Origin: Flavobacteriaceae bacterium PS02337
GTDB taxonomy: Bacteria > Bacteroidota > Bacteroidia > Flavobacteriales > Flavobacteriaceae
Assembly: GCA_029959285.1 (NCBI GenBank)
Contig: JASCOE010000005.1
Coordinates: 124,001 to 188,000 of the forward strand
DNA length: 64,000 nt
Direction of reading: 5' to 3'
Shown here piece after piece: positions 33,661 through 58,017 of the stretch (its first letter is position 1; the number at the start of each line of letters is the position of its first letter). The notes under the pieces were generated by a model. The model was not told where the DNA came from, did no database searches, and saw nothing but the letters and a program-made list of their open reading frames with translations. The translations under genes were made by a program, and so were the position numbers.

Positions 33661-33685
33661 GCTAAAGTAGAGTTTCTGCTTTAGC
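33661..33685 (-). terminator. Hairpin with T-run in the metK leader (possible attenuator)
   Basis: On the reverse strand GCTAAAG and CTTTAGC pair, followed after CC by five T. The stem overlaps the end of a 19-codon leader ORF, whose stop codon TAG lies in the right arm. Confidence 0.45.
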
Positions 33686-33721
33686 ATTTTTTACTACTGA
33701 AATGAATTTTTCAGCATTCAT
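33662..33721 (-). CDS. Possible 19-residue leader ORF upstream of metK
   Basis: On the reverse strand an ATG at 33721 opens a 19-codon frame ending in KAETLL and a TAG stop. The ending resembles SAETLL in leader peptide A on the other strand, and the stop lies inside the hairpin ahead of metK. It has only one Met and no Cys, so sensing would differ. Two other tiny frames overlap it (starts near 33734 and 33739). Low confidence that it is translated. Confidence 0.35.
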   Translation of the reverse strand: MNAEKFISVVKNAKAETLL

Positions 33722-33782
33722 AACGAATCATTTCATTATGAAGAGGTTGCAATCAGTTCAAATTTTTCCTCTGTTTCGGGTG

Positions 33783-33901: not shown

Positions 33902-33933
33902 TTTGGTCGATTAAAAAATAGTTCGCACATTTG
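33902..33933 (+). promoter_or_regulatory. Promoter of leader A and the TonB receptor
   Basis: TTTG (33902-33905) and CACATTTG (33926-33933; one mismatch to TAnnTTTG) are spaced by 20 bases. The transcript would begin about 15 bases before the leader ATG. Confidence 0.6.
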
Positions 33934-33956
33934 CCTCGTTAAAATAACAGAACCAA

Positions 33957-34025
33957 ATGAAATTTACAGTTTGCAATATGATGTCTTGTAAGATGCCGGA
34001 ATTCTCCGCAGAGACTCTATTGTAA
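33957..34025 (+). CDS. Leader peptide A: 22-residue Met/Cys-rich attenuator ORF
   Basis: ATG at 33957 opens a 22-codon frame with TAA at 34023. The core CNMMSCKM puts four Met and two Cys codons within 24 bases. It starts about 15 bases after the predicted transcription start and ends 22 bases before a terminator. The RNA around its stop codon can pair with the terminator's 5' arm (see the attenuator entry). The peptide itself has no visible function; it is probably read only to sense charged Met/Cys tRNA. It shares the NMM-C-KM core with leader B at 37152. Too short for usual gene finders. Confidence 0.7.
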   Translation: MKFTVCNMMSCKMPEFSAETLL

Positions 34026-34077
34026 ATTTTTTTCAACAATATATAGAAACCTCTGCACATCGCAGAGGTTTTTTTTT
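34008..34077 (+). terminator. Attenuator A: terminator with alternative antiterminator
   Basis: The terminator is AAACCTCTGC / GCAGAGGTTT (34047-34071) plus nine T. Its left arm can instead pair, CTCTGC (34051-34056), with GCAGAG inside the leader ORF (34008-34013), closed inside by TATTGT (34018-34023) with ACAATA (34036-34041). That inner stem includes the leader stop codon, so a ribosome finishing the ORF would melt it and allow termination. A ribosome stalled on the Met/Cys codons would leave it intact. Confidence 0.7.
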
Positions 34078-34141
34078 GTTTAAAAAATTAAACTGTAAGA
34101 TTTTTTTTAAATCAAAAAAACACTAATTAATCAGTAAAGAA

Positions 34142-36988
34142 ATGAAGAAAAATGTACTCATCGTTTTAGGTCTTTTGACATTTTCGGGCATTAAAGCTCA
34201 GGAAAATAAAAAAGAACAGGATAGTTTAAAAAACAATGAATTATCAGAAGTTACTATTATTGGATCAAGAAGTAAAAATAGAGTTAAGACAGATGTACCA
34301 GTTCCGGTTGATGTTTTTAATGTAACTGAAATAACAAAAGGAGCGCCGCAAACCAGCGTAACTCAGATTTTAAATTATGTTGCGCCATCGTTTACGAGTA
34401 ATGCAACATCAACCGCAGATGCAACAGATCACGTTGATCCAGCGCAATTAAGAGGATTAGGACCAGATCAGGTTTTGATTTTAGTGAATGGTAAAAGAAG
34501 ACATACAAGTGCTTTGGTAAATATTAACGGATCGCCAGGAAGAGGTTCTGTAGGGACAGATTTAAATGCAATTCCATCTTTTGCCATTGAAAGAATTGAA
34601 GTTTTAAGAGATGGCGCGGCGGCACAATATGGTTCTGATGCAATTGCAGGAGTTATCAATATTGTACTGAAAAAAAATGCCAATTATTTAACGGGAGGAA
34701 TTCAATACGGAACGAATTTATCTTCTGGATCTAATAATTTTAAAGGCGGAGCCGACGGACAAACCGTTCAAGTTGATTTAAACTACGGAACTTCTTTAGG
34801 AAAACCAGGAAGTTTTTTCAACATAACAGGTAGCGCAGTGACAAGACAGGCGACAAGCCGAGCTGGAATTAGAAATAATGCTATTTTTAATGCTTATAAT
34901 GCGGTAGAAAATAGAGCAGCGCAAAACGGTGTCGAAATCAATTCGTTGTTTAGTAATATTAATTCGACTTCAAACTCAGCGCAAATTTTATCATCATTAA
35001 AACAATATGCGCCGCAAGTAAGTTATTTTACAACAGCACAGCAAAATGCGATTTCGTCTGCAACAACAATTGCACAAATGCAGACGGCTTTGAATTTTGA
35101 TGTCACAAATAATGAGTTAGCTTACAGAGGTCAGCAAAGAGCAGATTATAATATGAGTGTCGGCCAATCAGAATTGGCTTCTGGGCAAGCGTATTATAAT
35201 GCTAAATATCCTTTAACAGAAACCACTTCTTTGTATTCTTTTGGTGGAATATCGTATAGAAATGGTCAATCGTATGCTTTTAACAGATTGCCAAATGGTT
35301 CTGGAACTTTCACGCAAGTGTATGAAAACGGATTTTTACCAGAAATTGAATCTAAAATTTTAGATGCTTCCGCAGCTGTTGGTGTCACAACAGAATTGTT
35401 CGGATTTGATACCGATTTAAGTTCAACTTTAGGTTCAAACTCATTTAATTATGATGTCAATAATACAATCAATGCAACTTTAGGAACCAATTCGCCCTTT
35501 AGTTTTGATGCAGGAAAAGTTTCCTTTTTACAAAGCACAACCAATTTAGATTTTAGTAAAAAACTAGACGTTCTTTCAGGATTGAATGTGGCTTTTGGAG
35601 GTGAATTCAGATATGAAAATTACCAAATTAAAGCTGGAGAACAAGCTTCTTACGGATTATATGATGTAAACGGAAATTTGGTAACAGGAGTTTTACCAAC
35701 GACTTCGCCTTTAATCGTTACAGATTTCTTTGGAAACAAACGTGGAGCAGGAGCGCAAGGATTTTCAGGTTTCCAACCTTCAGATGCTAAAGAAAAAGAT
35801 AGAAAAAGTGGTGCAGCTTATATTGATTTAGAGTTGAATGCCACAGAAAAATGGCTAATCAATGGAGCGGCTCGTTATGAAAATTATTCTGATTTTGGAA
35901 ATACGGTTACTTTCAAATTAGCTTCTCTTTTAAAAATAACAGACAATATCAATTGGAGAATTTCTGGACAAACAGGTTTTAGAGCGCCTTCATTACAACA
36001 AAGATATTTTGAAGCAAGTTCAACTCAGTTTATAAATGGTGCGCCATATCAAGTAGGTTATTTTACAAATGATTCGCAAGCTGCAAAAAGTATCGGAATT
36101 GAAAGTTTAAAACCAGAAAAATCTAAAAGCATCAGTATAGGATTTACATTCAAAATTCCTGAAGCTAACATAACCATTGCTACTGATGCTTATTTTACAA
36201 GAATCAACGATCGAATTGTGCTTTCTGGACAATATTCGAGACCAACAGATGCGCAAATTGGAGCGGCAACTTCGCCACAGCAAGCACAAGCATTGACTTT
36301 GTTTCAAGAAGCATTTGATTTGAAAGGTGTTGAAAGAGCTTCTTTCTGGACCAACGGAATCGATTCTGAAACAAAAGGAATTGATTTGGTAATTTCTCAA
36401 AAATATGATGTAATTCAGGATTTTGTAATCAGAAATGATTTTGCTTTAAGTTTTAACGAAACAAAAAGAGTGGGAGATTTAAATGTACCGCAATCTATAA
36501 TTGATGCTGGTGGAGATCCATACATTTATTCATTTTTTCCAGAATCAAGCCGAGTTTATTTAGAAGAAGCGATTCCAAAATTGAAAGCCAATTTAATGAC
36601 GACTTTCAGCATTAAGAAACTGGATATTTATTTAAGAAACAGTTATTTCGGAAAAGTTACAGATCCAGGAGCAACAGATGTTAATTTAGATGGATTTTCT
36701 TCTGTGTACGAACATCCAGAATACAGCGCAAAATTGGTTACCGATTTATCTTTCGGATATCAAATCAATGAACATTTTAGAGCAACAATTGGGTTTAACA
36801 ATATAGGAGATGTTTATCCAGATAGAAATAATCCTTCGACTCCGGCATTTACAAACACAACTCCAACATTATCTCCAGCGCCAAGTACAGATTTGACAAA
36901 TGCGAATCAGTTTGCTTATTCTAGAGCAGTTTCTCAATTCGGATTAAACGGAAGATTTGGTTTTGCACGTTTGAGCTTTAAATTCTAA
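34142..36988 (+). CDS. TonB-dependent outer-membrane receptor under the Met/Cys attenuator
   Basis: A 948-residue receptor: signal peptide (LIVLGLLTFSGIKA), plug domain (DHVDPAQLRGLGPDQVLILVNGKRRH; ERIEVLRDGAAAQYGSDAIAGVINIVLK) and a 22-strand-type barrel ending in FARLSFKF. The plug is the classic iron-complex/cobalamin type. Because it follows a Met/Cys leader and lies between metK and metY, I infer import of a methionine-related or other organosulfur compound, or cobalamin, rather than iron. No SusD partner is present. Substrate not proven. Confidence 0.92.
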   Translation: MKKNVLIVLGLLTFSGIKAQENKKEQDSLKNNELSEVTIIGSRSKNRVKTDVPVPVDVFNVTEITKGAPQTSVTQILNYVAPSFTSNATSTADATDHVDPAQLRGLGPDQVLILVNGKRRHTSALVNINGSPGRGSVGTDLNAIPSFAIERIEVLRDGAAAQYGSDAIAGVINIVLKKNANYLTGGIQYGTNLSSGSNNFKGGADGQTVQVDLNYGTSLGKPGSFFNITGSAVTRQATSRAGIRNNAIFNAYNAVENRAAQNGVEINSLFSNINSTSNSAQILSSLKQYAPQVSYFTTAQQNAISSATTIAQMQTALNFDVTNNELAYRGQQRADYNMSVGQSELASGQAYYNAKYPLTETTSLYSFGGISYRNGQSYAFNRLPNGSGTFTQVYENGFLPEIESKILDASAAVGVTTELFGFDTDLSSTLGSNSFNYDVNNTINATLGTNSPFSFDAGKVSFLQSTTNLDFSKKLDVLSGLNVAFGGEFRYENYQIKAGEQASYGLYDVNGNLVTGVLPTTSPLIVTDFFGNKRGAGAQGFSGFQPSDAKEKDRKSGAAYIDLELNATEKWLINGAARYENYSDFGNTVTFKLASLLKITDNINWRISGQTGFRAPSLQQRYFEASSTQFINGAPYQVGYFTNDSQAAKSIGIESLKPEKSKSISIGFTFKIPEANITIATDAYFTRINDRIVLSGQYSRPTDAQIGAATSPQQAQALTLFQEAFDLKGVERASFWTNGIDSETKGIDLVISQKYDVIQDFVIRNDFALSFNETKRVGDLNVPQSIIDAGGDPYIYSFFPESSRVYLEEAIPKLKANLMTTFSIKKLDIYLRNSYFGKVTDPGATDVNLDGFSSVYEHPEYSAKLVTDLSFGYQINEHFRATIGFNNIGDVYPDRNNPSTPAFTNTTPTLSPAPSTDLTNANQFAYSRAVSQFGLNGRFGFARLSFKF

Positions 36989-37070
36989 TTAAAATAAATT
37001 TCTTTCAAGTCTTTGTTTATAAGGCTTGAAAGAAAATCTATAAAAAATAATACAAATTTTCAATTTTTAA

Positions 37071-37101
37071 TTTGGTGGTTTAAAAATATTTACTACTTTT
37101 A
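37071..37101 (+). promoter_or_regulatory. Promoter of leader B and metY
   Basis: TTTG (37071-37074) and TACTTTTA (37094-37101; last base differs from TAnnTTTG) are spaced by 19 bases. Confidence 0.55.
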
Positions 37102-37120
37102 CTCTATAGAAATAGTAGAG
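37102..37120 (+). promoter_or_regulatory. Palindrome at the leader B transcription start (possible operator)
   Basis: CTCTA and TAGAG close a 19-base palindromic segment containing ATAG, located where transcription should begin. It is loosely similar to the candidate Rrf2 sites at 48139 and 48358. Confidence 0.35.
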
Positions 37121-37151
37121 TTTAAAAAAATAAGATTAATTATAAAATAAA

Positions 37152-37232
37152 ATGAAAGCAATAGCAAAAAGAAATATGATGTGCTGTAAGATGATGCAAA
37201 ACTGCATCCCACATTGCTGTTGCCAAAAGTGA
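37152..37232 (+). CDS. Leader peptide B: 26-residue Met/Cys-rich attenuator ORF
   Basis: ATG at 37152 opens a 26-codon frame with TGA at 37230. The core NMMCCKMM has four Met and two Cys; a further NC and the run HCCC follow, so 11 of 26 codons are Met or Cys, counting the start. It begins about 45 bases after the predicted transcription start and ends 30 bases before a terminator. The last codons (CCAAAAG) can pair with the terminator arm. It precedes the small-protein gene and metY. The shared core with leader A strongly suggests a common sensing role. Confidence 0.75.
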   Translation: MKAIAKRNMMCCKMMQNCIPHCCCQK

Positions 37233-37300
37233 AAGATACAATCTTTGTTATAGTTAAACTATAAGTCCTTTTGGTCGCCATCCGAAAGGGCTTTTTTTTT
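37223..37300 (+). terminator. Attenuator B: terminator with alternative antiterminator
   Basis: Terminator arms AAGTCCTTTTGG (37263-37274) and CCGAAAGGGCTT (37282-37293) pair fully with three G-U pairs and lead into nine T. The left arm's CTTTTGG (37268-37274) can instead pair with CCAAAAG (37223-37229) at the leader's last codons. Between them two small stems fit exactly (AAAGAT/ATCTTT at 37232-37246; TATAGT/ACTATA at 37249-37263), giving a closed multi-helix antiterminator that a ribosome at the stop codon would block. Confidence 0.7.
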
Positions 37301-37321
37301 ACTCATTTAAAATTAAAAATC

Positions 37322-37501
37322 ATGAAAACGCTAAACTCAATTGCATTTGAATATTTACTAAGAAACGATTCTCAAAAAAATAATAAATCAGAAGAACTGT
37401 CAAGAGAAGTTACAAGAATAAATGTGACACAGAATTCTGAAGGTCAAAAATCATTATTGTTTAAGATGTATGATCTTGAAGAAGAAGAACTTTATGTTTA
37501 A
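37322..37501 (+). CDS. Small protein 1 with C-terminal SLLFxMY motif
   Basis: A 59-residue hydrophilic protein, no signal peptide or membrane helix. Its end, SLLFKMYDLEEEELYV, matches the end of the 67-residue protein at 40763 (SLLFLMYSKENETLFI). Both genes lie just after a leader-terminator unit and before a methionine-synthesis gene. This one is 76 bases before metY. The conserved hydrophobic-acidic tail suggests binding to a partner. Function unknown; I know of no named family. Confidence 0.6.
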   Translation: MKTLNSIAFEYLLRNDSQKNNKSEELSREVTRINVTQNSEGQKSLLFKMYDLEEEELYV

Positions 37502-37576
37502 AACTATTCAGATTTTCAATTTAAAAATCAATTACAATATATACTGTATTAACAATATTAAAAAAACTAAGAAATC

Positions 37577-38881
37577 ATGAGCACACAAAAATTTGCAACA
37601 AACGCACTACACGCAGGACATGATGTTACTAAAAACGGATCAACTAGAGCAGTGCCAATTTATCAAACTTCATCATATGTATTTAATAACGCCGATCACG
37701 CAGCCAATTTATTTGGTCTTGCCGAAGCTGGATTTATTTATACCAGATTAAATAACCCGACAAACGACGTTTTAGAACAGCGTTTAGCGGCGCTTGAAGG
37801 CGGAATCGGAGCTGTTGTAACGGCTTCTGGAGCGTCTGCAATTTCTACAACATTATTGACTTTACTGCGAGCTGGCGATCATATCGTGGCTTCAAACAGT
37901 TTATACGGAGGAACTTATAATTTATTAAAAGTGACTTTGCCACGATTAGGAATTACAACAACTTTTGTAGATCCTTCAAAACCAGAAAATTTTACCAAAG
38001 CAGCAAAAGAAAACACAAGAGCATTTTTTGTTGAATCTCTTGGAAATCCAAAATTAGATGTTTTAGATTTAAAAGGAATTTCGGCAGAAGCCAAAGCATT
38101 CAAAGTGCCATTTATAGTAGACAATACAGTTGCGACACCTTATTTATTAAACCCAATTAAATATGGTGCCGATATTGTAATTCATTCCTTAACTAAATAT
38201 ATCGCAGGAAACGGAACTTCGTTAGGAGGCGTTATCATTGATGCTGGAAACTTTGACTGGGCAAACGGAAAATTTCCAGAATTTACCGAGCCATCTGCAG
38301 GATACCACGGATTAGTATATCATGAAGCTTTAGGAAATGCTGCTTTTATTGCAAAAGCAAGAATTGAAGGATTGCGTGATTTTGGTGCTGCTTTGAGTCC
38401 GTTTAATGCTTTTCAGATCATTCAAGGATTAGAAACGCTTCCAATCCGAATTAAGAAACATAGTGAAAATGCTTTGGCTCTGGCCGAATGGTTAGAAAAA
38501 CAAGATGAGGTTGTTTGGGTAAATTATCCAGGATTAAAATCAAGTAAATATAATGATTTAGCTAAAGAATATTTACCAGAAGGACAAAGCGGTATTATTA
38601 CTTTCGGATTAAAAGGAGGTTTTGATGCAGCTAAAAAAGTGGTAGACGAAACTAAATTATTCTCATTGCTGGCTAATATTGGTGACACAAAATCATTAAT
38701 TATTCACCCTGCAAGTACTACACATCAGCAATTGACAGAAGCAGAACAAGAAGAAACAGGAGTTTCTAAAGACTTGGTTCGTCTTTCTGTCGGAATTGAA
38801 GATATAGAAGATTTGATTGCAGATCTTCAGGCTGTTTTTGAAAGTGTTAAGCTTTCACAATACAGCATCAATAAGAATTAG
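37577..38881 (+). CDS. metY: O-acetylhomoserine sulfhydrylase
   Basis: A 434-residue PLP enzyme of the Cys/Met metabolism family. It joins sulfide to O-acetylhomoserine, giving homocysteine. The long length (about 430) and FATNALHAGHD start are typical of MetY rather than MetB. Visible are YTRLNNPTNDVLEQRLAALEGG, the PLP lysine in IHSLTKYIAGNGTSLGG and HPASTTHQQL. It is under attenuator B, whose Met/Cys codons fit its product pathway. A terminator follows at 38913. Confidence 0.95.
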   Translation: MSTQKFATNALHAGHDVTKNGSTRAVPIYQTSSYVFNNADHAANLFGLAEAGFIYTRLNNPTNDVLEQRLAALEGGIGAVVTASGASAISTTLLTLLRAGDHIVASNSLYGGTYNLLKVTLPRLGITTTFVDPSKPENFTKAAKENTRAFFVESLGNPKLDVLDLKGISAEAKAFKVPFIVDNTVATPYLLNPIKYGADIVIHSLTKYIAGNGTSLGGVIIDAGNFDWANGKFPEFTEPSAGYHGLVYHEALGNAAFIAKARIEGLRDFGAALSPFNAFQIIQGLETLPIRIKKHSENALALAEWLEKQDEVVWVNYPGLKSSKYNDLAKEYLPEGQSGIITFGLKGGFDAAKKVVDETKLFSLLANIGDTKSLIIHPASTTHQQLTEAEQEETGVSKDLVRLSVGIEDIEDLIADLQAVFESVKLSQYSINKN

Positions 38882-38912
38882 GTTTTTTTGTTTTTTGTTT
38901 GAAAAATTGCCT

Positions 38913-38946
38913 TTAGTGATTGGCTTTGCTAAAGGTAATTTTTTAT
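38913..38946 (+). terminator. Intrinsic terminator after metY
   Basis: AATTGCCTTTAG and CTAAAGGTAATT pair over a 12-base loop and are followed by a T-run. Confidence 0.75.
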
Positions 38947-38978
38947 GAAAAGCATCATTATAAAAATTAAACCATATA

Positions 38979-39000
38979 GAGGCGCACCGCAGTGCGTCTC
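38979..39000. repeat. REP palindrome GAGGCGCAC-CGCA-GTGCGTCTC
   Basis: A GC-rich hairpin of nine pairs with a CGCA loop, unlike the AT-rich surroundings. An in-frame GTG within it could be taken as the start of the next gene, but ATG codons further down fit better. Confidence 0.6.
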
Positions 39001-39018
39001 AATCTGGTTAAAAATAAA

Positions 39019-40119
39019 ATGTTAGAAATTATGTCAAAGCTTAAAATAAACATTATCCTTTTCGGAATTGGAAATATCGGAAGCACTTTGATTAATCAAA
39101 TTATTGAAAGTCAGGAATTTTTTCTTGAAAGTAAGAATATTGATTTTCATTTTCCAATCATAACCAATTCGACGGTTGCTTTTTTTGAAAAAGAAGGTGT
39201 CGGTTATTCCTGGGAAACCAATTTTCTACAATTGGCAGTTCCATTTAAAGTGGAAGATATTATTGAATTTGCCAAAGAAAATGAATTCGAGAATCTCATC
39301 GCCGTAGATGCAACAGCTAGTGACGAGTTGGTGAAACATTATAATACGCTGATCGAAAACGGATTTAATATCGTAGCGGTAAACAAAAAAGCCAATACAC
39401 TTCCAATCGATTTGTATAAAGAACTGCGATTAAATCTTAAAAAGCATGACAAAGAGTTTTTGTATGAAACTTCGGTTGATACCGGAATTCCAGTGCTGCA
39501 GACTTTAAGAGATTTGTATTATTCGGGAGAAAAAATCACAAAAATTCGAGGCGTATTCTCAGATAATCTGAGTTATGTTTTTAACCGCTTTTCAGCAGAA
39601 GAGGTTACATTTTCTTCTGTTTTAAAAGATGCCAGCCTTTTGGGTTTGATGAAATCTACTTTCAAAGAAGATTTATCAGGAAATGATACCGCAAGAAAAC
39701 TTTTGATATTAGCCAGAGAAATAGGAAAAGATTTTGAGCTGTCAGACATTAAAATTAGGCCCTTTATAACAGAACAACATTTAGAAAAAAACGGTGTGTT
39801 GAATAAAGATGCAGTCGATAAAGCATTTAAAATTGCCAAAATCACACAAGCCGAAAATCATGTTTTAAGATATGTAGGAGAATTTGATGTAGAAAAAGGC
39901 AGTTTAGAAGTCAAATTGATTTCGGAGCCAATACATTCTGCTATTGGACAATTGAAAGGTTCGGATACTATTTTTGAAATTTTCACAAAATCATATGCCA
40001 ATGTACCAATCGTAATTCAGAGTGCGCCGCCATGCAAACAAGCAATTTCGAGAGGAATTATAACCGATATTTTGAAAATTGCCGAAAGAATAAGAAATAA
40101 AGAAGCAGTTTGGTTGTAA
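39019..40119 (+). CDS. Homoserine dehydrogenase paralog with altered active site
   Basis: A 366-residue protein clearly related to the dehydrogenase half of ThrA at 42328 (FGIGNIGSTLINQI against IGHGLVGGTLINQI). The nucleotide-binding loop and the NKKAN lysine are kept. Key substrate-site motifs are changed: ThrA's YTEPNPREDLGGND is LMKSTFKEDLSGND here, VGAGLP is VDTGIP, FSGTLSY is FSDNLSY, and GAGAGSAVTARG near the end is SAPPCKQAISRG. It may therefore be inactive, altered in substrate, or regulatory. It follows metY after a terminator. The start at 39019 is preferred (39031 is possible). Confidence 0.8.
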   Translation: MLEIMSKLKINIILFGIGNIGSTLINQIIESQEFFLESKNIDFHFPIITNSTVAFFEKEGVGYSWETNFLQLAVPFKVEDIIEFAKENEFENLIAVDATASDELVKHYNTLIENGFNIVAVNKKANTLPIDLYKELRLNLKKHDKEFLYETSVDTGIPVLQTLRDLYYSGEKITKIRGVFSDNLSYVFNRFSAEEVTFSSVLKDASLLGLMKSTFKEDLSGNDTARKLLILAREIGKDFELSDIKIRPFITEQHLEKNGVLNKDAVDKAFKIAKITQAENHVLRYVGEFDVEKGSLEVKLISEPIHSAIGQLKGSDTIFEIFTKSYANVPIVIQSAPPCKQAISRGIITDILKIAERIRNKEAVWL

Positions 40120-40314
40120 ATTTTTTGAGAAAAACAGAAAATAAAGTTTAAAGTTCTTTGATAAACTGATTTGTCAAGTGGAGTTAGAAATTAATAAAAG
40201 CTCATTTTTGTAAGTTTTTTACTTATTTTATATCGTTTTTATCTTTGTAAGACATTTTTTAACGTTAAAAAGATGTTTTTTTAACGATTTTTGTAATTAA
40301 ATTCTTGATTTTCA

Positions 40315-40346
40315 TTTGTGTAATAAGAAAAATAGTTGCATATTTG
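40315..40346 (+). promoter_or_regulatory. Promoter of leader C
   Basis: TTTG (40315-40318) and CATATTTG (40339-40346, one mismatch to TAnnTTTG) are spaced by 20 bases, the same spacing and first-base change as in the leader A promoter. Confidence 0.6.
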
Positions 40347-40373
40347 TGATACCCAAAAACTACTAGAAATCAA

Positions 40374-40445
40374 ATGAACTTAAAAGTCAACAAAATGTTT
40401 TATGCCATTTCGGTTATTACCGAGGCTGGGTTGTCTATTGCTTAA
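40374..40445 (+). CDS. Leader peptide C: 23-residue attenuator ORF
   Basis: ATG at 40374 opens 23 codons with TAA at 40443. The segment KMFYAISVITEAG is rich in Ile, Val, Thr and Ala codons with a single internal Met, so it may respond to threonine/isoleucine-type amino acids, which also arise from the aspartate pathway. It shares NKMF with leader D. It ends 25 bases before a terminator. It is the first of two leaders placed one after the other ahead of a small protein and, further on, metX-thrA. Confidence 0.6.
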   Translation: MNLKVNKMFYAISVITEAGLSIA

Positions 40446-40504
40446 ATTGTAACAAACACAATATATAGTAAAGCCTCCCAAAAAAATATTGGGAGGCTTT
40501 TTAA
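40422..40504 (+). terminator. Attenuator C: terminator with alternative antiterminator
   Basis: Terminator arms AAGCCTCCCAA and TTGGGAGGCTT (40471-40499) precede five T. The left arm AGCCTC (40472-40477) can instead pair with GAGGCT in the ORF (40422-40427), with an inner stem TATTG (40436-40440) and CAATA (40459-40463) around the stop codon. The CTATTG...CAATATATAG text is shared with attenuator A. Confidence 0.6.
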
Positions 40505-40547
40505 TTTTACACAAATGCAGAATTTAAAATTACAATATAAATCACAG

Positions 40548-40613
40548 ATGAATAAATCCTTACAGATGAACAAGATGTTTGCTGTCGCGCTTATTTGCGT
40601 ACTGGTCTGTTGA
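40548..40613 (+). CDS. Leader peptide D: 21-residue Met/Cys-containing attenuator ORF
   Basis: ATG at 40548 opens 21 codons with TGA at 40611. It contains QMNKMF, then a hydrophobic run with ICVLVC at the end: three Met including the start, and two Cys. No separate promoter is seen between terminator C and this ORF, so it is probably read only by transcripts that passed attenuator C. It ends 31 bases before a strong terminator. Confidence 0.6.
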   Translation: MNKSLQMNKMFAVALICVLVC

Positions 40614-40615
40614 TA

Positions 40616-40684
40616 CTAAAAAGTATAAATGAGTTTAAAAACTTAAACCCTTTTGGTATCTAAAAATCCAAAAGGGTTTTTTTA
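40616..40684 (+). terminator. Attenuator D: strong terminator after leader D
   Basis: AAACCCTTTTGG (40645-40656) and CCAAAAGGGTTT (40668-40679) form a perfect 12-pair stem before eight T. The antiterminator is less clear than in A-C: CTAAAAAG (40616-40623), just past the leader stop, pairs with CCTTTTGG with one mismatch. Confidence 0.6.
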
Positions 40685-40762
40685 TTCTTTCAAGTGATTT
40701 AACAAAAAAATAAAAGAGAAATAAAGATTATAAAACGCAAACTGAACTAAAACTTAAATATC

Positions 40763-40966
40763 ATGAGCACATTGAACTACTTAGCAGAAAAAATTTCAAA
40801 ATTGAAAAACAGAAGGACAAGAAAAAATAATCCGCCGCCACCTACGAATGAATTGGCTCACCCAAGATTCGGAATGACTGAGGGAGATAAAGGCGCTGCT
40901 AAAAAAGCACCGAACTCTTTATTGTTTTTAATGTATTCAAAAGAGAATGAAACGCTTTTCATCTAA
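40763..40966 (+). CDS. Small protein 2 with C-terminal SLLFxMY motif
   Basis: A 67-residue basic protein. It has a basic stretch (KLKNRRTRKNNPPPP), a middle region (NELAHPRFGMTEGDKGAA) and ends in SLLFLMYSKENETLFI, matching the 59-residue protein at 37322. It follows tandem leaders C and D and precedes a SAM riboswitch and metX. No named family; a role tied to methionine synthesis is inferred only from position. Confidence 0.6.
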   Translation: MSTLNYLAEKISKLKNRRTRKNNPPPPTNELAHPRFGMTEGDKGAAKKAPNSLLFLMYSKENETLFI

Positions 40967-41096
40967 ACTGAAAAGTGACATAAATTAGGGTAAAACCTGC
41001 TTAATTTTACTGGGCATTCCTGTTCGGTAAATTTTTGCGTATAATAGTTTTTGCTGAGAGTTGTTCAAGAAATTTAACAAACAGTTTTAGAATAAA

Positions 41097-41128
41097 TTTG
41101 TTTGTTAAAGAAATTAGTAGTTAATTTG
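41097..41128 (+). promoter_or_regulatory. Possible promoter of the SAM riboswitch-metX transcript
   Basis: TTTG (41097-41100) and TTAATTTG (41121-41128, one mismatch) are spaced by 20 bases, about 30 bases before the riboswitch. Confidence 0.45.
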
Positions 41129-41157
41129 CACCGTTAAGTTCAAAAAAGTATTGAAAT

Positions 41158-41261
41158 GTTATAAAGAAAGGACGAGGGATTAGACCCGATGAATCCTTAG
41201 CAACCCTTCGTTAATTCGAAGAAGGTGCTGCATTCTACCACGCCCAACGTGGAAAGATAAC
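41158..41261 (+). ncRNA. SAM riboswitch (S-box/SAM-I type) ahead of metX-thrA
   Basis: The conserved core is visible in order: GAGGGAT, AGACCCGATGAA, CCTTAGCAACCC, a variable hairpin, AAGGTGCTGCATTCTACCA and GATAAC. The closing P1 helix is GTTAT (41158-41162) with ATAAC (41257-41261). It binds SAM and is expected to shut off metX-thrA when SAM is plentiful. A palindrome with a T-run at 41275 is the candidate expression platform. Confidence 0.9.
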
Positions 41262-41274
41262 AACGAGAATTTTT

Positions 41275-41294
41275 CTAGTTTAAACTAGTTTTTT
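41275..41294 (+). terminator. Short palindrome with T-run after the SAM riboswitch
   Basis: CTAGTTTAAACTAG is followed by six T. It is short for a terminator but positioned as the expression platform of the riboswitch. Confidence 0.45.
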
Positions 41295-42327: not shown

Positions 42328-44742
42328 ATGAAAGTATTAAAATTTGGAGGTAAATCATTAGCAAACGGAGAAGGACTTAACAAAGTTGTTTCAATCATTT
42401 CTGATAAAGTAAATCAAGGTGAAAAAATTGCCGTTGTAGTTTCTGCGCGCGGAAACGCAACAGACGAATTGGAATTTATCTTAAGCATTGCTGCAAAAAA
42501 TGGCAGTTATAAAGAATTATTAGAAAATTTTAAAAAATATCAAATATCAGATTATCCGCAAGTCGATTTGTCTGAAGAATTTAATGTTTTAGATAAACTT
42601 TTTGAAGGTGTAAGTTTGATTGGCGATTACAGTAAAAAAATCAAAGATCAGATTTTATCAAAAGGAGAGTTGCTTTCTGCTAGATTGTTAACAGCAATTT
42701 TGTTAGAAAAAGGAATTCCAGCCAATTTTGTTGATACAAGAGAATTGTTAAAAACTGATTCTAAATTTGGCGATGCACAGCCTTTAGAACAGCTTTCAAA
42801 GAAAAACGTAGTCAATTATTTCAAAACACATAATGGCGAAACGGTTAATATAGTTACAGGTTTCATTGGTTCAAACAACAACAACGACACAACTACTTTA
42901 GGTAGAAATGGCAGTAACTATACCGCTTCGTTAATCGCAAATTATTTAAATGCTGAAGAATTACAAAACTTCACGCACGTTGACGGAATTTACACGGCAA
43001 ACCCAGATTTAGTGGCAGATGCAAAGAAAATTGAATATTTATCATTTAATGAAGCAAACGAGCTGGCTAATTTTGGCGCAACAATTTTGCACGCTAAAAC
43101 GATAATTCCTTTATTAGAAAAAAATATTCCGCTTCGTATTTTAAATACTTTCAATCATGAAAATCGTGGTACTTTAATTACTTCAGATTCTGCGAAAGAA
43201 GGAATTAAAACGCTTTCTGTTTTAGAAAATGTATCGTTAGTAAATCTTGAAGGACGTGGTTTGCTTGGAAAAGCTGGAGTTGACGCCAGAATTTTTAAAG
43301 TAATGGGCGATCATAATATCAGTGTAAGTATCATTTCTCAAGGTTCTTCAGAAAGAGGAATCGGACTTGTGGTTGCAACTGATAAAGCAACAACTGCGGT
43401 TGTAGAATTAGAAAAAGAATTCGAAAATGACTTTTATTCTAAAGATGTAAATCAGATTACGGTTACAGATAATGTATCGGTAATTTCGATTATTGGTCAG
43501 GATTTGAGTACGTTCCACAAACCTTACACGGCTTTAATTAGAAATAAAATTGTTCCGATTTTATTCAACAATACTGTTACGGGTAAAAATGTGAGTTTGG
43601 TTGTGAAGAAATCAGAACTGAATAAAGCTTTAAATGTAATTCACGGTGAAATTTTTGGAGTTTCAAAAAAGATCAACATTGCCATTATCGGTCACGGATT
43701 AGTGGGCGGAACTTTGATTAATCAAATCTTAGAATCTGCTTCAGCTATCGAAAAACGTAAAGGTATTAAGCTAAATGTTTTCGCTATTGCGAATTCCAAA
43801 AAAGTGCTTTTAAACAAATATGGCGTTGCCAATAACTGGAAAAGTGAAATTGATACAAAAGGTGAAGCTTACACCATTAATGATATTATTGCTTACGCGA
43901 ATGACAATCATTTAGAAAACTTAATTGCAGTAGATAATACGGCAAGTGCAAGTTTCGTAGAAAATTATATTCCTCTTGTAGAAAATAGTTTTGATTTAAT
44001 TTCTTCGAATAAAGTGGCCAATACATTAAGTTATGGTTTTTATAAAGAATTGAGAAGTGCTTTAGAAGAAAATCAGAAAAATTATTTGTACGAAACCAAT
44101 GTTGGTGCAGGTTTGCCATTAATTGATACCATTAAATTATTGCATCTTTCTGGTGAAAATATCACTAAAATTAAAGGAGTTTTCTCTGGAACATTAAGTT
44201 ATTTATTCAATAATTTCTCTGCGAAAGATGTGCCGTTTAGTGAAATTCTTCAAGAAGCAATCGATAACGGATATACAGAACCAAATCCACGTGAAGATTT
44301 AGGTGGAAATGACGTGGGAAGAAAATTATTAATTTTAGCTAGAGAGTTAGATTTACAAAATGAGTTTGAAGAAATCTCGATTCAGAATTTAATTCCAGAG
44401 CATTTACGTGAAGGAAGCGCTGCCGATTTCTTAACGAAATTAAAAGAATTCGATCCAATTTATGCTAAAATAAAAGCAGATCAAAAGCCAAATCACGTTT
44501 TGAGATATATTGGTGAATTGTCTGGAGATTTGCAAAATGATAAAGGTAATCTAGAAGTGAAATTAGTTTCTGTTCCTTCAGACACCGCTTTGGGCGGATT
44601 AAAAGGTTCTGATTCTTTCTTCGAAATTTATACAGAATCTTACGGAGATCGTCCAATCGTTATTCAGGGAGCTGGTGCAGGTTCTGCAGTAACGGCAAGA
44701 GGAGTTTTTGGAGATATTTTGAGATTATCTGACAAAGGGTAA
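42328..44742 (+). CDS. thrA: Bifunctional aspartokinase / homoserine dehydrogenase
   Basis: An 804-residue fusion. Residues 1 to about 290 are aspartokinase (LKFGGKSLANGEG; TLGRNGSNYTASLIA), about 300-450 hold ACT domains, and about 450-804 are homoserine dehydrogenase (AIIGHGLVGGTLINQIL, SSNKVANTLS, GYTEPNPREDLGGNDVGRK). It makes the committed intermediate homoserine for Met, Thr and Ile. It starts one base after metX and shares the SAM riboswitch. In this setting it serves methionine synthesis in particular. Confidence 0.95.
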   Translation: MKVLKFGGKSLANGEGLNKVVSIISDKVNQGEKIAVVVSARGNATDELEFILSIAAKNGSYKELLENFKKYQISDYPQVDLSEEFNVLDKLFEGVSLIGDYSKKIKDQILSKGELLSARLLTAILLEKGIPANFVDTRELLKTDSKFGDAQPLEQLSKKNVVNYFKTHNGETVNIVTGFIGSNNNNDTTTLGRNGSNYTASLIANYLNAEELQNFTHVDGIYTANPDLVADAKKIEYLSFNEANELANFGATILHAKTIIPLLEKNIPLRILNTFNHENRGTLITSDSAKEGIKTLSVLENVSLVNLEGRGLLGKAGVDARIFKVMGDHNISVSIISQGSSERGIGLVVATDKATTAVVELEKEFENDFYSKDVNQITVTDNVSVISIIGQDLSTFHKPYTALIRNKIVPILFNNTVTGKNVSLVVKKSELNKALNVIHGEIFGVSKKINIAIIGHGLVGGTLINQILESASAIEKRKGIKLNVFAIANSKKVLLNKYGVANNWKSEIDTKGEAYTINDIIAYANDNHLENLIAVDNTASASFVENYIPLVENSFDLISSNKVANTLSYGFYKELRSALEENQKNYLYETNVGAGLPLIDTIKLLHLSGENITKIKGVFSGTLSYLFNNFSAKDVPFSEILQEAIDNGYTEPNPREDLGGNDVGRKLLILARELDLQNEFEEISIQNLIPEHLREGSAADFLTKLKEFDPIYAKIKADQKPNHVLRYIGELSGDLQNDKGNLEVKLVSVPSDTALGGLKGSDSFFEIYTESYGDRPIVIQGAGAGSAVTARGVFGDILRLSDKG

Positions 44743-57665: not shown

Positions 57666-57688
57666 CACTGTTCTTAAAATTATTGTCA

Positions 57689-57801
57689 GTTATCACGAAA
57701 GGCGGAGGGATAGACCCGATGAAACCTTAGCAACCCTTTATCATAAAGAAGGTGCTAAATTCTACTTTATACGACATTTTCCAGTATTAAAGATAGATAA
57801 C
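57689..57801 (+). ncRNA. SAM riboswitch (S-box/SAM-I type) ahead of metH
   Basis: Core motifs in order are GGAGGGATAGACCCGATGAA, CCTTAGCAACCC, AAGGTGCTAAATTCTAC and GATAGATAAC. P1 is GTTATC (57689-57694) with GATAAC (57796-57801). No clear terminator follows directly. About 350 bases of repeats separate it from metH, so its output may use one of the hairpins there (for instance 58039-58071). Confidence 0.9.
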
Positions 57802-57870
57802 ACAAATACATACTCGTATTTCTCAAAACTTTTCTCGATAACATATAATATTTACTGAAACAGATTCTGT

Positions 57871-58017
57871 ATCAGGAGCGAATCATTGGCGCATTTTTGC
57901 AGTTAATAGTTCCCGCTTTACGTTGCAATCATTTTGCTTTTTAAAGAAAAAAGCAAAATGATTTCCACTTCAATCGGGGCTAATGAGCCGGCAATAGTGC
58001 ACTTTTGGAATTAATGT
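57871..58017. repeat. Dispersed repeat with TCCCGCTTTACGTTGC and CAATCGGGGC arms
   Basis: TCCCGCTTTACGTTGCAATC is followed by an inner hairpin (ATTTTGCTTTTT/AAAAAAGCAAAAT) and by CCACTTCAATCGGGGC. I recognise this layout as a common intergenic repeat in Flavobacterium genomes. It is inserted between the riboswitch and metH. Confidence 0.65.

Follow-up and report, generated by a model that had tools for sequence, protein, structure and literature searches.

Candidate ribosome-mediated attenuators of the methionine type upstream of a TonB-dependent receptor gene and metY in Flavobacteriaceae

The DNA analysed in this study (the window) is a stretch of 64,000 nucleotides (nt) from contig JASCOE010000005.1 of Flavobacteriaceae bacterium PS02337, and its methionine region contains four short leader open reading frames (ORFs), here named A to D, among the genes for a TonB-dependent receptor, metY and metX-thrA. 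All four ORFs lie where a preliminary description of the same DNA had placed them, each with a terminator behind it, as seen in the ORF list, in a terminator scan (A, B and C) and with our own finder (D). Leader A has metK on the minus strand (named by eye) on one side and the receptor gene on the other. Comparison with relatives suggests that A and B are very probably ribosome-mediated transcription attenuators which mainly read the charging of methionine tRNA, and A appears to show the features of such a device more cleanly than B. Features are listed in Table 1.

The placement of the leaders ahead of metY and metX-thrA needs refinement, because an ORF of 59 amino acids (aa) intervenes between B and metY, and C and D precede an ORF of 67 aa, which is followed by a SAM-I riboswitch (a sensor of S-adenosylmethionine, SAM) and then by metX. 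The best match of metX was TIGR01392 with 176.5 bits, which is under its cut-off of 500. The 59-aa and 67-aa proteins are 31% identical (E 4e-06), and no Pfam or NCBIfam model matched either of them; it was also observed that they sit right behind the B and D terminators and share the motif SLLFxMY near the end. There was no NCBIfam model for the four leader peptides, and no tandem repeats were found. Among 361 small ORFs of the window (ATG-started, 15–40 codons, one per stop codon, 192 on the plus and 169 on the minus strand), two have at least four Met/Cys codons within eight codons, namely A and B. The earlier count of four Met and two Cys in eight codons is right for B (NMMCCKMM), while A has three Met and two Cys (CNMMSCKM). 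Between 32000 and 48000 there are 21 terminator-like sites versus 8.6 ± 2.3 in shuffled sequences, and the leader terminators (C, A and B) rank highest. The pairings between the leader stop codon region and the terminator were all present as described (GCAGAG/CTCTGC in A, CCAAAAG/CTTTTGG in B, GAGGCT/AGCCTC in C), and they are not restricted to these three leaders, since D pairs too, UGAUACUAAAA with UUUUGGUAUC(U), beginning inside the stop codon.

Table 1. Features of the methionine region, in positions of the window.
Feature	Position	Strand	Basis or remark
Putative promoter of leader A (TTG-N20-CACATTTG, flavobacterial type)	33903..33933	+	8/9 positions fit
Leader ORF A, MKFTVCNMMSCKMPEFSAETLL, 22 aa	33957..34025	+	
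A 1:2 hairpin, UGCcGGA..UCCGCA	33994..34010	+	right behind last Met codon
A segment 2, GCAGAG	34008..34013	+	partner 34051-34056
A terminator (segments 3 and 4)	34045..34073	+	terminator scan
TonB-dependent receptor, 3' of A	34142..36988	+	Pfam PF00593, PF07715
Putative promoter of leader B	37072..37101	+	
Leader ORF B, MKAIAKRNMMCCKMMQNCIPHCCCQK, 26 aa	37152..37232	+	
B segment 1, GCAATAGCAA	37158..37167	+	partner 37214-37223
B segment 2, TTGCCAAAAG, finishing at stop codon	37220..37229	+	
B terminator	37263..37293	+	terminator scan
59-aa small protein, B-to-metY interval	37322..37501	+	
metY, O-acetylhomoserine sulfhydrylase	37577..38881	+	TIGR01326 646.5 bits, cut-off 495.1
Stand-alone homoserine dehydrogenase, ahead of C and D	39019-40119		
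Leader ORF C, MNLKVNKMFYAISVITEAGLSIA, 23 aa	40374..40445	+	relative of A
C segment 2, GAGGCT	40422..40427	+	partner 40472-40477
C terminator	40470..40500	+	terminator scan
Leader ORF D, MNKSLQMNKMFAVALICVLVC, 21 aa	40548..40613	+	in-frame extension to ATG at 40515
D segment 2, GATACTAAAA	40612..40621	+	partner TTTTGGTATC at 40651-40660
D terminator	40645..40679	+	second terminator finder
67-aa small protein, 3' of D	40763..40966	+	resembles 59-aa protein
SAM-I riboswitch ahead of metX-thrA	41156..41263	+	RF00162, 75.7 bits
Fused aspartokinase-homoserine dehydrogenase, after metX	42328-44742		

The exact core NMM(S/C)CKM was tried as the conserved unit and rejected: in 299 genomes of the family, with at most one mismatch, a leader match was found only in the own genome, and two further matches had no leader around them. 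The exact core is thus not what is conserved, and the regions upstream of metY were compared instead. A looser Met/Cys pattern found A, B and five other sites in the own genome; none of these five is followed by a terminator within 250 nt. For the first comparison set, the 80 loci with the most similar MetY were taken from named genomes, Flavobacterium in nearly every case; with the window this makes 81 loci. A B-type leader with terminator precedes metY in 81/81 and an A-type one in 79/81 (by script); A is upstream of B, at a long distance in 47 loci and close by in 32, and a TonB receptor like that of the window (at least 1642 bits) stands between A and B in all 46 far loci besides the window. 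A set of 33 Flavobacterium genomes with lower MetY identity, partly overlapping the first set, gave 35 metY upstream regions, and leader and terminator are present in 33 of these regions. In a family-wide draw of 100 metY upstream regions (99 from other genera), 12 have such leaders and 88 do not. metY is present in 15/15 g32 and 14/16 g112 genomes, and at these loci the A-type leader was found in 29/29 and the B-type in 28/29 (L219 gave none). Alignment of these regions in relatives, as the preliminary description had proposed, showed leaders that keep Met/Cys codons and paired changes in the competing helices. It was also observed that G328 (L245/L253) and G458 (L252/L255) each have two metY copies, one behind an A/B-type pair and the other behind a C/D-type pair.

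Several assignments define these counts. Counts of A omit L109 (unclear frame), L085 is a truncated contig and L108 yielded no A; the duplicates L215, L226, L231 and L238 were taken out, and some entries are shared between the comparison sets (G328 = L113). B elements of g112 with a CCCTCTGG stem were refiled from A to B, and L225 and L227 were dropped. Figures for duplexes, promoters and geometry come from the refiled sets, and the alignments A1 (47 A elements) and A2 (43 B elements), built from 49 loci hand-picked for diversity, are without misfiled elements.

In the A elements of A1, the antiterminator helix 2:3 has 98.6% standard cells, with a covariation of 0.174 versus 0.041 ± 0.013 in shuffled alignments and none of 500 shuffles as high, and 99.2% of cells of terminator 3:4 are paired. 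The signal comes from one position, which covaries through segments 2, 3 and 4 together (A-U-A in 22 sequences, C-G-C in 17, A-U-G in 5, and C-G-U, G-C-G and G-U-A in one each, n = 47), and as the codon that covaries there encodes Glu, Ala or Gly in most peptides, it seems that the RNA is kept and not the residue. The 1:2 hairpin behind the last Met codon folds in 47/47 sequences with a mean of −5.9 kcal/mol, taking in the GCA of segment 2 in nearly all, and its cells pair above the shuffles in both registers (1/500 as high). The 2:3 duplexes of A have a mean energy of −12.7 kcal/mol, versus −8.8 for shuffled and −9.0 for clade-swapped partners. When folded in silico, segment 2 of A is paired upstream with a mean probability of 0.83 before segment 3 exists; with segment 3 present it is paired at 0.37 upstream and at 0.53 with segment 3, and at full length the terminator reaches 0.97. 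Since segment 2 is taken up early and the terminator dominates late, termination should be the more likely outcome for an A leader that is not translated, as it is for the trp leader.

The B elements are similar in plan. In A2, 98.4% of the cells of B 3:4 and 85.8% of those of B 2:3 are paired, the latter with four pairs altered on both sides. Helix 1:2 of B is formed by the first codons with those of the Cys-Cys-Cys (CCC) part, and 88.1% of its 227 cells are paired, as counted in the 20–26 sequences that hold this part (the alignment is cut at 75 nt of the ORF, so B elements of other genera fall outside the count); its outermost pair fails in 17/20. The 2:3 duplexes of B average −12.8 kcal/mol versus −9.6 shuffled and −11.5 clade-swapped, and the default state in folding is less clear for B (0.38), as it is for D (0.31).

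The placement of the codons fits the helices. In A leaders the Met/Cys codons stop some 15 nt short of segment 2, at the expected edge of a stalled ribosome; in 112/113 such a codon starts 15–17 nt ahead of segment 2, and the interval of 3–14 nt contains just 13 Met/Cys codons in all. For B, 83/107 have a codon in the 15–17 nt bin. With assumed ribosome edges, at least two Met/Cys codons lie at least 13 nt upstream in 113/113 A and 107/107 B leaders, and a ribosome at the stop codon overlaps segment 2 in 111/113 A and 106/107 B. Non-initial Met codons number 2–6 in 113 A leaders and 3–12 in 112 B leaders. A promoter pattern (TTG-N17-21-TAnnTTTG, at least 8/9 positions, within 90 nt upstream, with reversed sequences as controls) matched 106/115 A entries, two of these 115 being misfiled B elements, versus 41/115 reversed ones; at 14–24 nt from the ATG the figures are 89/115 versus 3/115. 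B entries gave matches in 64/112 versus 11/112.

To put these elements together, RNA polymerase would begin just upstream of the leader ORF, with a ribosome trailing behind it. If charged methionine tRNA is scarce, the ribosome would stall at the Met codons and open helix 1:2, thereby freeing segment 2, which would pair with segment 3, so that no 3:4 terminator could form and the TonB receptor gene, or the 59-aa protein gene and metY, would be transcribed. With plentiful methionine, the ribosome would reach the stop codon and cover segment 2, and 3:4 would end transcription; with no translation at all, helix 1:2 of A would also favour termination. As A and B stand in tandem before metY in many relatives, they would act there as two gates in series, while in the window the TonB receptor gene intervenes. 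A and B thus carry a leader rich in cognate codons, an intrinsic terminator, a 2:3 antiterminator (weaker in B), a 1:2 helix and a fitting codon placement, and ribosome-mediated attenuation is strongly supported for both by the conserved codons, the three competing helices, the codon-to-helix geometry and the genomic context. The ORFs, codons, helices, covariation and geometry, as well as the exchange with SAM-I described below, are what the comparison itself yields; from them we infer leader translation, termination and the response to methionine.

At metY, the attenuator and the SAM-I riboswitch replace each other. SAM-I lies upstream of metY on the same strand in 86/88 loci without attenuator (20/20, 20/20, 19/20, 19/20 and 8/8), the two exceptions being L132, with just 383 bases of sequence upstream, and L199, which is without SAM-I. 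At the attenuator loci scanned it was found in 0/30 (0/20 and 0/10; of the loci L244–L278, 12/35 were scanned for riboswitches), and the metY of the window has no SAM-I or SAM-II aptamer. All 18 SAM-II hits in the scans that covered the attenuator loci are on the strand opposite to metY, and neither the window nor the loci of these scans matched the T-box model at its gathering score. The genus g109 holds both devices, the attenuator in L123 and SAM-I in L133. The SAM-I (S-box) riboswitch occupies the same site upstream of metY, but it senses SAM directly and without a leader ORF; substitution of one sensing system for another at a single gene has been described (PMC2965389).

It has to be considered which amino acid is read. 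A reading with Met and Cys as co-equal signals, in which shortage of either charged tRNA is sensed, would explain why Cys is present in all Flavobacterium leaders counted (78 A with a mean of 1.9 and 81 B with a mean of 5.6), and the use of both TGT and TGC suggests selection on codon meaning. We consider it unlikely, because Cys is missing from 4 of the 13 cleanly filed g32 A leaders, each of the 13 having 5 or 6 Met besides the initial one, and because the CCC codons of B build helices 1:2 and 2:3, a part at which L091 and L110 change frame but keep the RNA letters of segment 2. For the same reason, the CCC codons of B were dropped as a candidate Cys sensor. These A leaders without Cys and the helical role of the CCC codons point to Met as the main signal, with Cys secondary. 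In G335, of another family of the order, the leader upstream of metY (634.2 bits) is LIMMMSLSMMMWMQSVYMKV, with Met but no Cys, and it forms a weak 2:3 helix, equalled by 22% of shuffles.

Other explanations dispense with the attenuator. As A and B have their own promoter-like sites and strong terminators, each could be an independent gene for a small protein or a small RNA, with the next gene uncontrolled. This is very improbable, as promoter-like sites in the 90 nt past the terminator were found in 0/112 for B and 14/115 for A, and as such genes would give no role to the 2:3 helix and would not account for a presence that is exclusive with SAM-I. Motifs rich in Met and Cys are able to bind copper, so the nascent peptide itself might be a sensor, binding a metal or arresting the ribosome by its sequence. 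A nascent protein that senses copper and controls translation is on record (PMC9973294), yet we regard this explanation as hardly credible for A and B: clades differ in how Met and Cys are ordered and spaced (NMMSCKM, NMCCMM, NMMRMMM, NMCMMM), the frame shifts past the core in L111 and L112 as well as in the two loci named above with unchanged RNA letters of segment 2, and a SAM sensor substitutes at metY. Given this variable order and these frame shifts, no fixed arrest sequence is found in the leader peptides.

Several observations weigh against attenuation by A and B. The outer pairs of B 2:3 are broken in 10, 16 and 18 of 43 sequences, one slid control beats the structure in two-sided changes (16 versus 7 cells), and the swap energies show that this control separates A but hardly B. 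The codon spacing of B is unclean too, with 88 Met/Cys codons at 3–14 nt, 73 of them in the 3–5 bin, being Cys of the CCC part or the like. In A, the position that changes in all three segments amounts to a single pair, which may have changed independently two or three times, and the 1:2 hairpins have a modest mean z of just −1.7. The terminator always wins at equilibrium (the 0.97 given above for A), so the switch would have to depend on timing. Among divergent Flavobacterium, the 2:3 duplex of 9/52 elements is equalled by at least 20% of shuffles, and L256 and L259 (2/35 Flavobacterium loci) have neither attenuator nor SAM-I. Finally, the counts cover related sequences and are therefore not independent.

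Leaders C and D belong to the same kind as A and B. Their 2:3 duplexes have means of −11.1 kcal/mol versus −6.9 shuffled (C, 43 loci) and −12.0 versus −7.0 (D, 76 loci), and the evidence for their antiterminators is this pairing. That C and D of the window continue to read Met and govern metX-thrA through read-through is a tentative proposal that we would rate as possible at best. It is in line with the detection of C by a model built from A-type elements (46.8 bits), with the antiterminator pairings of both, and with C/D-type leaders before metY in L250, L251, L253 and L255, in which the D-type members are richer in Met/Cys. It has to be set against the low content of the leaders, which is on average 1.2 non-initial Met and 1.1 Cys in 43 C leaders and 3.1 and 2.2 in 76 D leaders, and against the SAM-I riboswitch that separates D from metX. 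The original proposal of Met/Cys-sensing attenuation by all four leaders is thus partly supported, for A and B, as attenuation with Met as the main and Cys as the secondary signal; it is doubtful that the window's C and D sense Met/Cys, and their role there is uncertain.

The same device may serve other genes. The model built from A1 gave strong matches in the own genome only for A (107.6 bits) and C, and of three regions with weak full-length matches that were examined, two contain Ile-rich leaders with terminators. One leader, MKNLVQNSIIISIIIIRFT, lies before a gene resembling that of the acetolactate synthase small subunit (ilvN-like; 72.4 and 56.3 bits, under the cut-offs of 119 and 56.9), the A-model match itself falling just upstream of the leader; the other, MKNFNNIIIAIISIIAIQQ, has ilvA behind it (632.6 bits, cut-off 421). 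Shuffles equal the 2:3 duplexes of the two leaders in 0% and 3% of cases, and such Ile-rich leaders at ilv genes suggest that the organism carries further leaders with cognate codons. These two loci of the same genome, before the ilvN-like gene and ilvA, are L315 (leader at 329, plus strand) and L316 (minus strand). Elsewhere, L308 has Met-rich leaders ahead of a metX-like gene, and L307, a locus with a metH-like gene, has leaders with less Met (genes named by eye). As a separate observation, L305, L307, L308 and L312 have A/B-like leader-terminator elements with few Met/Cys codons before similar unnamed ORFs of 148–152 aa.

Known attenuators of trp, his, thr and ilv consist of a leader ORF with cognate codons, helices 1:2, 2:3 and 3:4 and an intrinsic terminator ahead of genes of the cognate pathway, and A and B have that anatomy. 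Unlike them, A and B have Met (with Cys) as cognate, are often in tandem, and in B segment 2 finishes at the stop codon. Vitreschak et al. (2004) reportedly mention Bacteroidetes. A further difference is the host phylum, described in PMC6847099 as being without Shine-Dalgarno sequences. The statement that no description had been published in Bacteroidota was too strong, since in F. psychrophilum, of the same genus, the regions ahead of operons for amino-acid biosynthesis have been reported to give clues of leader-peptide attenuation (PMC9723704); the main text of that paper has 0 occurrences of “methionine” and leaves the list of elements to the supplement. In Bacteroides, small ORFs in long 5' untranslated regions are reminiscent of leader peptides (PMC7366714). 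For Campylobacter jejuni, a MetL leader with an initiation peak in ribosome profiling and the Met-rich CJsORF19 (MMYQMR) upstream of a D-methionine transport gene are reported (PMC11955535); their authors detected them only in C. jejuni or related Campylobacter, and the comparison with our leaders is by description and not by sequence. The C. jejuni transcriptome paper PMC3656092 had been guessed as the source of MetL and was set aside, the searched words being absent from its main text. The metL leader of Streptomyces lividans ends in CMCRRMCAF upstream of metNIQ (PMC8079986), but it has a leaderless start and, according to the authors, no typical Rho-independent terminator. The poly-Cys leaders of Actinobacteria carry runs of Cys codons close to the stop codon, with cys or cbs genes downstream (PMC1262725); they differ from A and B in that there are no conserved terminator hairpins in mycobacteria and Met is uninvolved. 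No description of methionine attenuators in Bacteroidota was found among the matches listed, in a search that left subscription papers and supplements outside. As far as these sources go, Met-rich leaders and leader-peptide attenuation in Flavobacterium are already in print, while a methionine attenuator in Bacteroidota was not found described.

Some further observations concern the window at large. The SAM-II riboswitch of metK (33671-33777, minus strand) is back to back with leader A, so one intergenic region holds two different devices. A second SAM-I riboswitch (57687-57803, plus strand) is close to a Flavo-1 RNA (57905-57985, minus strand) on the opposite strand. The fused aspartokinase-homoserine dehydrogenase lies near a separate homoserine dehydrogenase. 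The closest solved relatives of the TonB receptor by sequence are siderophore and B12 receptors, aligned over the plug region, which does not indicate the substrate.

If A and B work as proposed, they would be a case in Bacteroidota in which ribosomes that start without Shine-Dalgarno sequences would need to trail RNA polymerase closely for attenuation. A gene at which a leader-peptide attenuator and a riboswitch are exchanged, even inside one genus (g109), would offer a natural experiment, and for the uncharacterised TonB receptor a role can be predicted from its position between A and B. We hold it to be an evenly balanced proposition that control of metY has been rewired at the level of the family, between a SAM riboswitch and two serial attenuators reading charged methionine tRNA, and that A, in many Flavobacterium, drives a TonB receptor which would be an importer of methionine or of a sulfur compound induced by methionine starvation.

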